Shown here piece by piece: positions 9,711 through 34,107 of a stretch of DNA of 36,686 nucleotides. The position numbers and the translations under genes were made by a program. The stretch is from a bacterium (GTDB lineage: Bacteria; Cyanobacteriota; Vampirovibrionia; Gastranaerophilales; Gastranaerophilaceae). Within the stretch, counting starts at the first letter, position 1; every line of letters begins with the position of its first letter. The notes beneath the pieces were generated by a model, which saw only the letters and a list, made by a program, of their open reading frames with translations, was not told where the DNA came from and ran no database searches. The stretch lies in the NCBI GenBank assembly GCA_017433195.1, contig JAFRHR010000015.1, positions 1 through 36,686 on the forward strand, in the 5' to 3' direction.

Positions 9711-10250
9711 ATGACAATATCACCTAATATTCAAACATATATAGAAAATTCAAAAATCAACGGGATACTTTGCAAGTGGGATAAAAGTATCATTAACGTT
9801 TTTATCACCCAAATTACTCATAATATCCCAAATAAAAACTTTTTATACAGTGAAATTCTACGAGGCATGACCGTCTGGAATGAAAATTTAAGAAAAAACG
9901 GGATAAATATACGGTTTCAGCAGACACAAAGTCCCGATAATGCAGATATAATAATTCACTGGACAAAAGTCGGCAGAGTTTATAACGGAATGTGCAAATA
10001 CCCCTCTGTCGTAAACGGAATTATTAAAAAGATTTATATTGATGTGGGACTTAAAAACGATTGTTTAGATAAAAATACAACAGAAGAAAGCATTTTCTTT
10101 GTAATAATGCACGAATTAGGACACTCTTTAGGACTCGGCCACGGAGTTGACATTGACGATTTAATGTATTCCCCGAGACAAAAACGAATATCCACCCCTA
10201 ACGAAAACGATATTTATGTTTTGAAACAAATTTATGGGGTAAGGGGGTAG
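9711..10250 (+). CDS. Matrixin-like (metzincin) zinc metalloprotease, putative
   Basis: A 179-residue protein with a clear metzincin zinc site: H134-E-L-G-H138-S-L-G-L-G-H144, in which the three histidines bind zinc and E135 is the base. L-M-Y with M152 eight residues later fits the Met-turn. Upstream, W-N-E-N-L-R-K-N-G-I-N-I-R-F and A-D-I-I-I-H-W match the strand pattern of small matrixin-type domains. No signal peptide, propeptide cysteine switch or membrane segment is visible, so it may act in the cytoplasm or leave by a non-Sec route. It starts 9 nt after nuoN and is probably co-transcribed with complex I. Its substrate is unknown; a role in maturation or turnover of the complex is only a guess. 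Confidence 0.8.
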   Translation: MTISPNIQTYIENSKINGILCKWDKSIINVFITQITHNIPNKNFLYSEILRGMTVWNENLRKNGINIRFQQTQSPDNADIIIHWTKVGRVYNGMCKYPSVVNGIIKKIYIDVGLKNDCLDKNTTEESIFFVIMHELGHSLGLGHGVDIDDLMYSPRQKRISTPNENDIYVLKQIYGVRG

Positions 10251-28218: not shown

Positions 28219-28560
28219 ATGTTTCAAGGATTTTATCCACAATACGATTTATCAATGAGAATCCAGCATACCAAGTTGGATTGCGGTGTTACGGGAATGC
28301 CTTCTGCCAGAATGGAAAGAATGGAAAAACCCGAAACGGAAGACTTCAAAACAGTATTTTCAGGACTGGTTGAAAACTTAAATGAACAAATGAACGAACC
28401 TGATGTTTTGTTAAAAGATTCGTTAGCCGGAAACCAAAACGTTGATATCCACGATGTTATGACTGCAATGGCTAAAGCAGAACTCGGAATTAACGTAGCA
28501 ACTCAGGTGACCGGTAAAGTCATACAAGCGTATGATAGAATTATGCAATTACAAGTATAA
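28219..28560 (+). CDS. fliE: Flagellar hook-basal body protein FliE
   Basis: Adapter joining the MS ring to the rod, exported by the flagellar type III system. 113 residues. The C-terminal half follows the FliE pattern: V-D-I-H-D-V-M-T-A-M-A-K-A-E-L-G-I-N and T-G-K-V-I-Q-A-Y-D-R-I-M-Q-L-Q-V at the very end. The N-terminal 45 residues are unusual for the family. It is the first gene of the flagellar run. In most genomes flgB and flgC precede fliE; here the divergent aspS does. The 226-bp gap upstream is AT-rich with no clear promoter I can name. Confidence 0.88.
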   Translation: MFQGFYPQYDLSMRIQHTKLDCGVTGMPSARMERMEKPETEDFKTVFSGLVENLNEQMNEPDVLLKDSLAGNQNVDIHDVMTAMAKAELGINVATQVTGKVIQAYDRIMQLQV

Positions 28561-28610: not shown

Positions 28611-30239
28611 ATGGATTTCAAAGCATTATTACAAAACAAAATTATGTTAATTTCAATCGGGGCAGGTCTGTTACTTGTACTTATGCTCGGAGTTTCAATA
28701 TCCATGATAGCAAAAGGAAGTTCTGCACCGGGAACTGCAACTGAAAAACCTATTAGCCAAAGAATTGATTTACTGACAACAGATAATTTTGGTAAAGCAC
28801 TTGAAATTCAGGCACTTTTAGCGAGAGAACGTATTCAGGTTGAAAGACAGGATGACGGACAAAAACATACTATCTATATCAAACCTAATACCTGTACTCC
28901 TACCCAAAAAGATCAGGCATTTTTAGCCATCGTAAAAAGCGGTTTAATGGACCAGAATATAGGTCTTGAAATATTCGATAAAGGTGATTTTACTTCTACA
29001 AAAGAAGATAAAAGAATAAGACTTGCAAGAGCAATTAACGGAGAACTTGCAAGATTAATCAGAAAAATTCCTCCGATAGAAAACGCATCAGTATTTATCT
29101 CTATACCTGAACAAACAATGTTCTCATCCATGCAGAAACCTGTTACTGCAACAGTTCAGGTTACTATGCCGAGCGGGGAAAAACTTGATGCAATAAAAAT
29201 TAAAGCAATTAAAAACTTGTTATTAGGAAGTGTTACAGGCTTAGTTTCTGAAAACATTTCAATAACAGATACCAACGGAAACGTATACAACAGTATGATA
29301 AATGCCGAATCCGAAATGCTTGCAAGAATAGAAGAAAACGATAAGTACATGCAGAAAAAGGTTATGGCACAACTTGATAAACTTGTCGGAACCGGCAACT
29401 ATGTCGCAACTGTAAGTACTTTCTTAAAGCAGGCGCCTGTTGAAAGATTTACTTTGGAATATGATCCAAACAGAAAAGCATCTGTAACAGAACAATCTTT
29501 CACTGAAGGTTTGGGCGATCAGACAACAGATAACAACAAAAATACTAACGCTGTCAGCGTATATTTACCAAATGGTTTACCTGCAGGCGGTTCTGATTCT
29601 TCTCAGAACAGAAGTTATTCAAGATCTGCAAAAGAAACTCAATTCGGCGTAACAAAAATCCAGACAAACGAATACTTAAGCGCAGGTGTTCTTGAAGAAA
29701 TTTCAATTGCATTAACTCTTGAAAAAAGTGCTATGCCGCCTGATGTAACCATCGAAGAACTTAAAGAACTTGTTGCAAAAGCTGCAAGTCCGAAAGTTAA
29801 CCCTGAAAACGTATCTATTGCATTTACAGATTCTTTAAATCCGTACCTTGCATCTGACAGACCGGTTAACTTACCGACCCCTGATGAAACAGGTAATCCA
29901 TGGTGGATAGTAATAGCAATAGCAATCATAGGAAGTATAATTGTTTACAGAGTTGTTTCAAATAAACTTTTAACAGAAAGAATTGAAAGTGAAAAAGCAA
30001 TCAATGCATTAAAAGCTAAGAATATGGAACAGGATAAACAGTTAAGAGATGTAAGCTTAAAAGCTGCAGAATTAATTGAAAAGCAATCACAATTATCTCA
30101 GGGATTAATTGCTCAGCAGCAAAAAACATTTGCTACCGACAAATTTGATGATGCTGTTGATGACATAAAATCAGAATTTGACATAATTGATGAAGTTGAA
30201 TTAGCTGATAATATCAAAAGTTGGATAGAACAAGGATAA
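28611..30239 (+). CDS. fliF: Flagellar MS-ring protein FliF
   Basis: Forms the membrane ring at the base of the flagellum. 542 residues: TM1 at about 14-33; the YscJ/FliF ring-building domain at about 50-230 (L-T-T-D-N-F-G-K-A-L-E-I-Q-A-L-L near the start, A-R-A-I-N-G-E-L-A-R-L-I-R and A-S-V-F-I-S-I-P later). A linker and second ring motif follow, then TM2 at about 424-442. The C-terminus is an acidic tail ending N-I-K-S-W-I-E-Q-G, where the tryptophan helix normally binds FliG. The tail is preceded by a coiled coil. Ribosome site GGAAGAGG at 28598-28605. Confidence 0.93.
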   Translation: MDFKALLQNKIMLISIGAGLLLVLMLGVSISMIAKGSSAPGTATEKPISQRIDLLTTDNFGKALEIQALLARERIQVERQDDGQKHTIYIKPNTCTPTQKDQAFLAIVKSGLMDQNIGLEIFDKGDFTSTKEDKRIRLARAINGELARLIRKIPPIENASVFISIPEQTMFSSMQKPVTATVQVTMPSGEKLDAIKIKAIKNLLLGSVTGLVSENISITDTNGNVYNSMINAESEMLARIEENDKYMQKKVMAQLDKLVGTGNYVATVSTFLKQAPVERFTLEYDPNRKASVTEQSFTEGLGDQTTDNNKNTNAVSVYLPNGLPAGGSDSSQNRSYSRSAKETQFGVTKIQTNEYLSAGVLEEISIALTLEKSAMPPDVTIEELKELVAKAASPKVNPENVSIAFTDSLNPYLASDRPVNLPTPDETGNPWWIVIAIAIIGSIIVYRVVSNKLLTERIESEKAINALKAKNMEQDKQLRDVSLKAAELIEKQSQLSQGLIAQQQKTFATDKFDDAVDDIKSEFDIIDEVELADNIKSWIEQG

Positions 30240-30260: not shown

Positions 30261-31274
30261 ATGCCTATAGAAGGGTTCGATTATAAAGAATTTGCAACTG
30301 CAATGTCTGAGCAGGCAAAGGAATTAGTGCCTGCAGACCTTAACGATATGCAAAAAAACTATGTAGTCAAAACTCTGGCTAATTTTACAATGCTTGCAGG
30401 GGAAGCCATTTCCAAAGACGAATCTTTAGGGTTTAACGCAGAACAGGCTATTTTTGTCTCACAGGTCATTGCAGAATGGGCTTTTCATAAATCTATAGAC
30501 CTTATCCATTCAGGAATACTGCCCGAAAACTGGGACAGTATTATGCAGAAAATTGCATTTTCCATTTTTGAAGTTGCAAAACAGGGAATTAAAAAGAATA
30601 TTCCGCAAGACCAATTATTACAACTTGTTGAACACCATGTTGTAAAAACTTACACCGCAGCAATTGATGATTTGCTTCAAAAAGGAAAAATTAACGAAGA
30701 AATAAAAGAAAGAGCCGTAAGACAATCAAATATTGATGCAATGGCTCAACAGGTACAGGAAGAACAACAAAAACAAGAACAACAAATACAACAACAGCAG
30801 GCAACACAAGGAATACAGGTTCCGGCAACACCGGCATCAAGTTTACCTCAAAATCAGGCTGCAAGTTCAAGCCGTATTATAAGACTTGCCACTGTGGCGA
30901 TAATACTTAAAAAGATGCCGGAATCAAAAGTCAGAACCATTTTATCAAGTTTTTCAGAAAGAGATGCCCAAACAATTATAGACTATATGGCAACTGACGA
31001 TCTTGAAGAAACAATGGATAAAACTTTAACATTCAAGTGTCTGCGTGAAATGAAAAAACATTTGCCAAAACACAGAAAACGTACTTCGGCAATGGTATTA
31101 AAAGATTTAAATGAAGTTTTTGAAACCAAAGACAGAAACGAAATTGACAAAAGTATAAAAGATGAACGTCCTTACATAAGGAAATTCATTGATCAGGCCT
31201 ATGAAGGCGAATTTTATAATTTGCCTGTAAAGGTTGCGGGAATTATTGCCCAACATGTACGGGATAGTGTATAA
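30261..31274 (+). CDS. Divergent FliG-like flagellar motor switch protein
   Basis: Assigned mainly by position between fliF and fliH. 337 residues: an alpha-helical N-terminal part (to about 150), a Q/E-rich linker with runs of Q-Q (about 160-185), then a helical domain from about 205. That domain has R-L-A-T-V-A-I-I-L-K-K-M-P and V-R-T-I-L-S-S-F-S-E-R-D-A-Q, which resembles the armadillo-like FliG middle repeat T-I-A-L-I-L-x-x-L. The hallmark E-H-P-Q motif that should precede it reads I-I-R-L-A. I do not see the classic C-terminal torque helix with its charged residues. It may be a reduced or remodelled switch protein or an unrelated replacement. Confidence 0.6.
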   Translation: MPIEGFDYKEFATAMSEQAKELVPADLNDMQKNYVVKTLANFTMLAGEAISKDESLGFNAEQAIFVSQVIAEWAFHKSIDLIHSGILPENWDSIMQKIAFSIFEVAKQGIKKNIPQDQLLQLVEHHVVKTYTAAIDDLLQKGKINEEIKERAVRQSNIDAMAQQVQEEQQKQEQQIQQQQATQGIQVPATPASSLPQNQAASSSRIIRLATVAIILKKMPESKVRTILSSFSERDAQTIIDYMATDDLEETMDKTLTFKCLREMKKHLPKHRKRTSAMVLKDLNEVFETKDRNEIDKSIKDERPYIRKFIDQAYEGEFYNLPVKVAGIIAQHVRDSV

Positions 31275-31282
31275 TTTAGTAT

Positions 31283-32008
31283 ATGATTATTAAGAAAAAC
31301 CAGCAAAAAATCAGACAAGCTGTTCCAACGCAAGAACAGGTTGCAGAAGAAGAAGTCAACGAAATAGTTACCGAAGAAAACAACGATAACGAAGACGAAA
31401 TTATGACTCTTTTTGATCTTGATAATATAGATTTTTCACAAAGAAGTGAAAACAGACGAGGATCAAGACGAAGAGGTTTTCGCCGTATTGAAGACAGAAA
31501 TCTGGTATCCAGAGCAAAAGAAGAAGCTGATGAAATAAGGAAAAATGCCTATAACGAAGGCTACAAAACAGGTATTGAACAGGCTGAAAACGATATAAAC
31601 AAATTGCAGGAAGAAATTAAAAAATATATGAATGCAAAAGAAGAAGTTTATCAGTATATCGCACCGGATATTCTTGAAATAAGTTATGATATTGCAAAAA
31701 AAATCATTAAAGAAGAAATTGAAGCAAATCCTCAGGTAATATTCAATACAATTATTGATATTCTGAAAAACGTATCAAAAGGAGAGCCCAAAATTTCAAT
31801 AAAAGTTCATCCTGATGATGTTAAATTCGTAAAAGAAAAATTACCTGAAAAAACAGAATCACTTAATATAGATTCAAAAATAAGTATAATTGCAGACCCG
31901 TCTTTAAAAAGAGGCGATTGCAAATTTTATACAAACAATGGTGTAGTTGATGCCACAATTGACACACAATTAGAAATAATCCATAAAGCATTGAGGAGTA
32001 TCGTATAA
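31283..32008 (+). CDS. fliH: Flagellar assembly protein FliH (export ATPase regulator)
   Basis: Peripheral stator of the flagellar export ATPase FliI. 241 residues: a disordered acidic N-terminus, a basic patch, a coiled-coil helix (A-K-E-E-A-D-E-I-R-K-N-A-Y-N-E-G-Y-K-x-G) and a C-terminal FliH/V-ATPase-E-like domain. That domain has I-A-K-K-I-I-K-E-E-I, S-I-K-V-H-P-D-D and R-G-D-C-K-F. Position between fliG and flhA agrees, but fliI, which normally follows fliH, is not here. Its ribosome site is weak. The 3' end overlaps flhA by one base. Confidence 0.85.
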   Translation: MIIKKNQQKIRQAVPTQEQVAEEEVNEIVTEENNDNEDEIMTLFDLDNIDFSQRSENRRGSRRRGFRRIEDRNLVSRAKEEADEIRKNAYNEGYKTGIEQAENDINKLQEEIKKYMNAKEEVYQYIAPDILEISYDIAKKIIKEEIEANPQVIFNTIIDILKNVSKGEPKISIKVHPDDVKFVKEKLPEKTESLNIDSKISIIADPSLKRGDCKFYTNNGVVDATIDTQLEIIHKALRSIV

Positions 32009-34107
32009 TGGCACAGCCTCAGCAAGCAGACGTAACAAAACCAATAAGTGAAATTTTCTTAGCATTCTTCGTTTTAATGCTTATATTAATTTTGCTTATT
32101 GAAATGCCTCCATGGGTTATTAACGTATCAATAAGTTTGAACATAACACTTGGAATTGTCCTTCTGATGATTTCATTGTATGTACAAAAACCACTTGAAT
32201 TGGCATCATTTCCATCAATAATACTTATAGGAACAATGTTCCGACTTGTATTATCAATTGCATCAACCCGTCTTATCTTAGCAAAAGGTGATGCCGGAGA
32301 AATGGTCCACGCATTCGGTACATTCGTAACAGGTGGTAATATGATAGTCGGAGCCGTAATCTTCCTGATTATCACGGTTGTTCAGTTTATGGTTATCACA
32401 AAAGGTGCTGAACGTATCGCAGAAGTTGCAGCAAGATTTGCTTTAGACGCTATGCCAGGTAAACAAATGACAATTGACGCCGACTTCAACGCGGGGTTAA
32501 TTTCTCCGGAAGAAGCAGTAAAAAAACGTGAAGACTTACAGAGAGAATCAAACCTCTTCGGTTCAATGGACGGTTCTATGAAGTTCGTAAAAGGTGATAC
32601 TATAGCAGGTATCATTATCGTTATCATAAACATTGTCGGAGGTTTATGTATCGGATGTCTTATGAACGGAATGCCTGCAGGTGAAGCCGTTAACAAATAT
32701 ACAGTCTTAACCATAGGTGACGGTTTGGCATCTCAGGTTCCATCACTTCTGATGTCAATTGCAGCAGGTATCGTCATGACACGTTCTTCTGCCGCAAGTT
32801 CTTCATTAGGTGGTGATTTAACCGCACAGGTAATGAGTAAACCATACTCATTATTCTTTGCTTCCGTATTCTTGTTGTTGATTGCATTTTCATCACCATT
32901 TACCGGACTGCCATGGATACCGTTTACAATATTCGCATTAGGTTTGGCTTTCGCAGGGTTCTCTGTTCTTATCAATGCCGATGTCCAATCACAGTTAGGA
33001 CAACTTGAAAGTGTACGTCAAAACATGCAGGATTTGGTTAACCCGAATAAGATGTACGAAAGACTTGGTGTTGATGTTTTGAGTTTACAGGTTGGAGCAG
33101 GGCTTTTGGTTATTGCCGATCCGGATCAGGAAGGTCAATTGCTTGCTAAAATTGCTGCATTAAGACAAAGAACAACCGATGAATTAGGTTACATTTTACC
33201 GAATATTCGTATTATGGACTCCTCTGCTCTTGAATCTAATGAATACATGATTTCAATAAGAGGTAATAATGTTGCAACAGGATTTGTTTATCCTGGTAGA
33301 TTCATGGTTATTGCTGATCAATGGGATTCAACAAGAAAAAATGTCCCTGATGACGCAATAATCGGTGTTGATCCGACTTACCAAACTCAAGCATACTGGA
33401 TTAGTTTAGAAGATGCCAAAGCAACAAAAGAAGTTACCGCAGTTGACGCAACAGACGTTTTGGTTACTCACTTACAGGAATGTGTAAGACGTCACGTTGA
33501 TGAAGTTATGACAAAAACAGACGTTCTTAAACTTATGGAACTTGTACGTTCTCAAGACCCGACACTTGTTAACGACTTAGTTCCAGCAATTATTTCTACA
33601 AGTGATTTGAGAAAGATTTTTGTTAACTTAATCAGAGAAAAAGTTTCAATAAAAGATATTATATTTGTATTTGAAAGACTTTGTGACTATGCAAGATTTT
33701 CAAAAGAACCTGACATTCTGTCAGAACGTTTAAGAGCTGCATTAGGTCGTCAAATATGTCTCACAAACTTACAGGAAGACAAAGTTTTGTATGCTCTGAC
33801 CTTATCCCCGGAATGGGAAAAAGTTTTGGACGACAGTTGTCAGAGAACCGAGTTAGGAACAATGTTCCTGCTTAACCCGATGCAGGTACAGGATTTAATT
33901 GAGTCTACAGCAATGACATTAATGAGAGCACATCAGAACATAGGAAAACAACCTGTTATTCTTTGTTCTCCGAGAATAAGATTACCGCTTTATCAGCTAC
34001 TTGAAAGACACATTCCGACAATTGTCGTAATTTCTTATTCTGAATTAATTACGGATATTAAGGTTGAGGCGGTTGATACAATAGGTGAAAATGGCGGATA
34101 TAATTAA
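32008..34107 (+). CDS. flhA: Flagellar export protein FlhA
   Basis: Core membrane component of the flagellar type III export gate. 699 residues: about eight TM helices in the first 330, then a large cytosolic domain. The FHIPEP-family signature is clear: [25 protein letters not shown] and [10 protein letters not shown], which includes the conserved aspartate. The cytosolic half has [10 protein letters not shown] and the R-H-V-D-E-V segment. GAGGAG at 31993-31998 precedes the ATG. flhB is not adjacent. It overlaps yidD by 17 nt. Confidence 0.95.

Follow-up and report, generated by a model that had tools for sequence, protein, structure and literature searches.

A putative FliG-like protein within a conserved second flagellar-type gene set, probably serving export, in Candidatus Gastranaerophilales

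The analysed stretch of DNA (36,686 nucleotides, hereafter the window) carries on its forward strand a cluster in the order fliE-fliF-P0001-fliH-flhA, in which P0001, a protein of 337 amino acids, occupies the fliG slot (30261..31274; ATG at 30261, stop at 31274). It is flanked by an MS-ring type fliF (28611..30239; YscJ_FliF, 117 bits; YscJ_FliF_C, 43 bits) and by fliH (31283..32008; PF02108, 97 bits), with fliE (28219..28560; PF02049, 64.8 bits) and flhA (32008..34107; PF00771, 725 bits) at the two ends. FliE, FliH and FlhA had been described as conventional, which holds for their Pfam family membership and, at the level of the NCBIfam equivalog cut-offs, for FliE alone (TIGR00205, 61.2 over a cut-off of 30), FlhA scoring 696 against the flagellar model (cut-off 772). 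The window FliF also fell below its flagellar model (TIGR00206, 109 bits; cut-off 129.75). The other FliF and FlhA of this genome passed these cut-offs, and neither of its FliH proteins did. As originally noted, the window FliF keeps a tryptophan-containing tail (NIKSWIEQG; last 14 residues, 30195..30236). Tryptophan tails, for example I(K/R)SWIE, resembling VIRQWIN of Escherichia coli, were found in all 60 FliFs retrieved from the second system described below, the tryptophan lying within the last 14 residues in 60/60. In flagella the FliF tryptophan tail binds FliG; the flagellar FliF of the same genome has a tail lacking tryptophan and ends in LLTSYIKD. Elsewhere in the window, a 179-amino-acid open reading frame (9711-10250) contains the stretch HELGHSLGLGH, which we take to be a zinc-metalloprotease motif.

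Full-length orthologues of P0001 (40-57% identity) occur throughout Candidatus Gastranaerophilales and P0001 is therefore no chance open reading frame; their alignment showed many invariant residues. The protein proved mostly unrecognisable as FliG, as originally proposed, with no FliG Pfam domain at cut-off and no NCBIfam match at E<=0.01. FliG_M matched below threshold both in the whole protein (E 0.1) and in its C-terminal part alone (E 7.9e-4), and the related armadillo family MgtE_N matched the whole protein at E 4.8e-5. Among its 11 Pfam matches at E<=1 we detected neither the FliG_C torque domain (PF01706) nor YscK or OrgA_MxiK. The E-H-P-Q motif is missing, and the pattern ExPQ occurred anywhere in just two of 57 orthologues; the absence thus stands, whereas the status of the motif as a strict hallmark does not, since this genome's true FliG reads ENPQ. 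Two further features that had been noticed were also present, namely a Q-rich linker at about residues 161-202 (30741..30866) and a weak armadillo repeat at about residues 205-250. No relatives of P0001 were found in phages or plasmids, and none of five pattern matches in viral contigs was confirmed.

AlphaFold2 predicted an N-terminal helical domain (about residues 8-140, pLDDT near 90), disorder at residues 177-202 (pLDDT <50) within the linker and a helical C-terminal part, which folded alone reached a pLDDT of 88. We accordingly delimit an N-terminal domain (residues 1-160, 30261..30740), defined by this model and by the free-standing paralogues and FlhA fusions treated below, and a C-terminal part (residues 203-337, 30867..31271) with putative likeness to the N and middle domains of FliG. 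With Foldseek against the PDB, the first six matches of the C-terminal part were FliG chains (E 0.26-2.5), none significant singly, every match having E >0.1. The VIA comparison placed FliG in all of its top 13 rows (Z 4.8-6.6), the next row being unrelated (Z 4.5); these rows included FliG middle domains (3.2-3.5 A over 62-63 residues) and the FliG_N of a FliF-FliG complex (4.2 A over 65 residues). The Pfam matches seen most often across 54 such C-terminal parts, all below curated strength, were MgtE_N (21), FliG_N (13), WelO5 (10) and FliG_M (9; best 1.1e-4). By hhalign, the C-terminal part aligned over 33 columns with ten diverse FliGs (probability 22%), and the whole protein gave a probability of 1% against FliG of the same order and 6% against a more diverse FliG set. 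Foldseek with whole P0001 returned nothing at E<=0.001, its N-terminal half matching mainly designed bundles and V-ATPase pieces, and PDB sequence searches with P0001 and N-domain profiles gave nothing meaningful. The suggested armadillo remnant of FliG is thus backed by the fold comparison, short of proof, and the models are suggestive of residues 203-337 being a distant FliG N/M-type armadillo lacking FliG_C.

P0001 is not the only switch-slot protein of this organism, and that premise of the original prediction was wrong. A canonical fliG (FliG_C, 144 bits; TIGR00207, 343 over 226.7) lies on contig C7 in the row fliF, fliG, fliH, fliI, and matches to PF01706 in this genome were confined to that contig. 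We also found motA, fliM and fliN on contig C60 and fliP-fliQ-fliR-flhB-flhA on contig C35, and the flagellar set passed the NCBIfam cut-offs for FliF (242/130), FliG (343/227), FlhA (842/772), FlhB (361/349), FliM and FliN. A canonical fliG elsewhere in the genome had been named beforehand as a finding that would refute the original proposal, and with one present beside its own fliF, fliH and fliI the suggestion of a remodelled rotor interface finds no support for this organism's own motor.

The genome (a draft, 84.6% complete) contains two FliF, two full FlhA, two FlhB and two FliI-class ATPases, and the remainder of a second set is spread over several contigs. Contig C63 encodes a tandem-SpoA protein (L148 6581-7714; 50 against the SctQ model TIGR02551, cut-off 101) followed by FliO, FliP, FliQ, a small protein and FliR; contig C31 the second FlhB (336 against a flagellar NCBIfam cut-off of 349); contig C68 the second FliI (49% identity to flagellar FliI); and contig C36 FlgC, FlgB and two FlgG-like proteins. 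The second FliP passed its flagellar NCBIfam model (228 over 217), and the window FliF, the window FlhA and the second FlhB lay further below the injectisome models than below the flagellar ones. FlgE/F/G-like, FliK-like and FliJ-like genes were found some kb from flhB in the non-flagellate genome G018.

Several neighbours of the second set may be mentioned here. A sigma-70 region-4 gene adjoins the second flhB in this genome (L147:243-920, contig C31) and in G018 (L149:10830-11492), the match having been obtained on the G018 homologue, and is possibly a dedicated regulator. An SLT lytic transglycosylase gene follows flgC within the second-system operon in two genomes (L196:6796-7413, G013; L189:13094-13750, G328), a position that suggests a built-in cell-wall opener. 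No secretin was recognised by eye among the ORF starts of the cluster neighbourhoods.

Of 286 genomes of the order, 279 gave a P0001 match at E<=1e-3, a count that takes in some genomes with an N-domain-only paralogue (e.g. G045), and 118 gave a FliG_C match at E<=1e-10. Both were present in 114 genomes, P0001 only in 165, FliG only in four and neither in three. Within a subset of 47 chosen genomes (19 FliG-positive and 28 FliG-negative, four of the 47 being without a P0001 match), MotA occurred in exactly the 19 FliG-positive genomes and in none of the 28 FliG-negative ones, and full-length FlhB was single in 28/28 FliG-negative and double in 17/19 FliG-positive genomes. All 47 encode a second-type FliI (377-455 bits, 47-51% identity to flagellar FliI), a SpoA-domain frame of 327-463 codons (which in 40/47 holds a further SpoA at E<=0.1) and rod-family matches (46 over cut-off). 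The second set is a separate conserved gene set, kept in genomes without FliG and MotA. No MotA-driven rotor can thus operate there. The window cluster belongs to this set, which supports the original proposal of a basal body that exports instead of rotating. Across the class, 73 of 156 genomes matched P0001, 60 of the same order and 13 in families f9, f14 and f15, the latter matches being mostly via the C-terminal part alone.

A rotary machine of another kind, with P0001 and the tandem-SpoA protein as rotor and a non-MotA stator such as an ExbB/TolQ-type pair, would agree with the retained FliF tail and armadillo remnant. Short ExbB/ExbD/TonB-type-looking genes, judged by eye from ORF starts, do lie a few kb from the SpoA-fliP-fliR genes in two genomes (L150:17464-19385, G018; L153:161-2168, G001). 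However, P0001 has no FliG_C torque domain, MotA is absent from every FliG-negative genome of the subset and the tandem-SpoA protein was the only FliM-type one that we found in these genomes, so that we regard a second rotary machine as very improbable.

Gene order around P0001 was examined in the best 80 of 296 loci, where FliH lay downstream in 78, FlhA downstream in 74 and FliE-FliF upstream in 57. No fliF adjoined P0001 in 17 of the 74 loci with room upstream, the cluster being split there. In G013, of another family of the order, a single operon reads flgG-flgG-flgB-flgC-SLT-fliE-fliF-N-domain gene (187 aa)-P0001-fliH-flhA-fliI. Two loci of family f9, elsewhere in the class, have the same core with a 170-amino-acid gene preceding a P0001-like protein of 373 amino acids, and a locus of f15 reads fliF-P0001-like-fliH-flhA. 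By the conserved order fliF-P0001-fliH, P0001 thus corresponds in position to fliG.

A tree of 29 FlhA/SctV proteins (12 second-system, nine flagellar from the same order, of which eight were partial at about 485 amino acids, four outgroup FlhA and four SctV) united the 12 second-system FlhAs in a single clade (100/100) on a long stem, apart from the flagellar FlhAs of the order (100/100). This clade, which did not reach the SctV NCBIfam cut-off, was separated from the four SctVs of the sample (100/100, with warnings of long branches), and its placement among the other FlhAs was weakly supported (84/76, also with long-branch warnings). As the second-system FlhAs do not branch within the order's flagellar clade, we reject a recent copy of the organism's own flagellum.

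The same tree bears on the possibility that the second set is the residue of flagellar loss in gut lineages and P0001 an unconstrained, drifting FliG. Partial sets have been interpreted as loss or ongoing reduction in the portions of Soo 2014 and Di Rienzi 2013 available to us, and FliG and MotA are indeed missing from many genomes. Decay is contradicted, though, by the presence of the second set beside a complete flagellum in 19 of the 47 genomes, including the present one, as well as by the separate FlhA clade, the gene order and long open frames kept across the order and the many invariant residues of P0001. We hold this explanation to be as improbable as that of a second rotary machine.

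A dedicated injectisome-like system that injects other cells with effectors and in which P0001 corresponds to SctK has rather more in its favour and is nonetheless unlikely. The tandem-SpoA protein is SctQ-like, and P0001 lies between fliF and fliH much as sctK is located between sctJ and sctL in injectisomes; a SctK fold was not among the VIA matches listed for P0001, which is no exclusion. A weak gatekeeper-like match (E 0.0089) was found in a neighbouring N-domain gene in another family. Against this, flgB, flgC and fliE are kept, which are exclusion criteria for injectisomes as set out in the accessible part of PMC3459982, and the second-system FlhA lies outside the sampled SctV clade.

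The N-terminal domain of P0001 matched no known family in Pfam and PDB sequence searches. It also occurs as separate proteins of about 230-320 amino acids in many genomes of the order, and the longest N-domain proteins (574-592 amino acids) were, in all three examined, fused to the cytosolic domain of FlhA (L186:9633-11411, G049; L206:1900-3672, G065; L207:2364-4088, G078), the three genomes belonging to one genus (g11). These fusions link the N-domain to FlhA, the cytosolic part of which receives export cargo in flagella. A second N-domain gene immediately adjoins the fusion in G078. Free-standing paralogues lie away from the cluster at L184:9765-10457 (G018), L185:9429-10121 (G001) and L208-L212 (314 amino acids each), those of G018 and G001 terminating in hydrophobic stretches, as judged by eye. 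Soluble FlhA cytosolic domains without the membrane part were also detected, in both cases on the reverse strand, on contig C34 of the present genome (L041:2920-4389) and in G013 (L197:9038-10519); their N-terminus differs from the N-domain and is weakly DUF4177-like. A role of the N-domain as a CopN/SctW-like gatekeeper was considered and is kept as a lead only: T3SS_CopN_3rd matched two of 20 N-domain proteins (best E 0.0089), the two being nearly identical and from a single other family of the class, and a gatekeeper fold for the N-terminal half was not among the VIA matches listed, which is no exclusion. The 170-amino-acid gene preceding a P0001-like gene at L189:10279-10791, likewise in another family, shows such a similarity, weak as it is (E 0.0089), to the third domain of CopN.

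Taken together, we think it likely that P0001 is a relative of FliG that has diverged strongly and serves as a scaffold rather than a switch within a second type III export machine of the flagellar type. Since many of its carriers have no flagellar motor, this machine probably exports proteins and does not spin. The FliG-type armadillo part would be seated on the tryptophan-bearing end of the second FliF, on the SctQ-like ring or on both, and the N-domain would connect that ring with the export gate, with chaperones or with cargo bound to FlhA, so that P0001 could act as a sorting-platform scaffold. Such a machine would move its rod at the least, and probably further proteins, across the envelope without turning a filament. 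Genes of the rod/hook type and FliK-like genes are still present, which makes a short axial structure likely, and the system may be a specialised appendage. More speculatively, and with slightly less than even confidence, we propose a third type III export lineage in the class, rod-bearing and stator-less and neither flagellum nor injectisome, in which a FliG-derived armadillo protein joins an SctQ-like ring to the MS-ring and has gained an FlhA-linked sorting domain that later spread as paralogues and FlhA fusions; these gut bacteria would have it as a core secretion system, one overlooked because its genes were annotated as flagellar leftovers.

Common in the gut and for the most part uncultured, the Gastranaerophilales are related to cyanobacteria but do not photosynthesise. 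In the literature, the majority of them are considered to have lost their flagella and to retain useless leftovers. Our search of openly licensed PMC papers returned none that describes an export system of a second or non-motile kind in this order, and the larger finding that we favour is that the Gastranaerophilales have conserved a second export system, flagellar in type and stator-less. If true, this would give the order a near-universal route for protein export out of the cell in the gut, flagellar genes in these genomes could no longer safely be read as motility, and the system would be a living example of the conversion of a motor into a secretion device, with the stator-facing FliG domain gone, the armadillo kept and a new domain added. 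In the part of Di Rienzi 2013 available to us, 13 flagellar genes were used, two flhA among them, the gaps of MEL.A1 were ascribed to genome reduction, and its flagellin filament and P and L rings were given as missing; the accessible text of Utami 2018 restates the partial flagellar sets. Since that earlier gene list holds two flhA, the second set can confound trees of flagellar origin.

With the canonical flagellar basal body, the second system shares the export-gate set, FliE, FliF, an FlgB/FlgC/FlgG-type rod and the order around the fliG slot. It differs in that many carriers lack both MotA and a canonical FliG, that a single SctQ-like protein takes the place of FliM and FliN, that P0001 has a new N-domain and is without FliG_C, and that FlhA forms its own deep clade. 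Filament-less hook-basal bodies are also made by Buchnera, a non-motile host-associated bacterium, from its only flagellum; we know of no replaced FliG there. The tandem-SpoA SctQ-like ring protein, the gene for a soluble protein between the MS-ring and FliH/SctL genes and the dispensability of a motor are shared with injectisomes, whereas the second system keeps flgB, flgC and fliE and a FliF with a flagellar-type C-terminal domain. In the part of Abby and Rocha 2012 (PMC3459982) available to us, injectisomes are defined as lacking flgB, flgC and fliE, so that by these criteria the second system, in which all three are present, counts as flagellar. The same source describes the Myxo T3SS of Myxococcales as secretin-less, motor-less and clade-conserved, once annotated as degrading relics and regarded by its authors as an exaptation intermediate; as far as that account goes, the Myxo T3SS lacks flagellum-specific genes, whereas the second system retains rod genes and a FliG-like protein. 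A precedent for export without FliG is provided by the non-flagellated Lysobacter enzymogenes, in which, according to the portion of PMC9927559 available, the flagellar T3SS is functional without FliG or motility and secretes FlgD. Lysobacter, however, has on that account a reduced single flagellar set, whereas here we find a separate second system, in some species beside a full flagellum.
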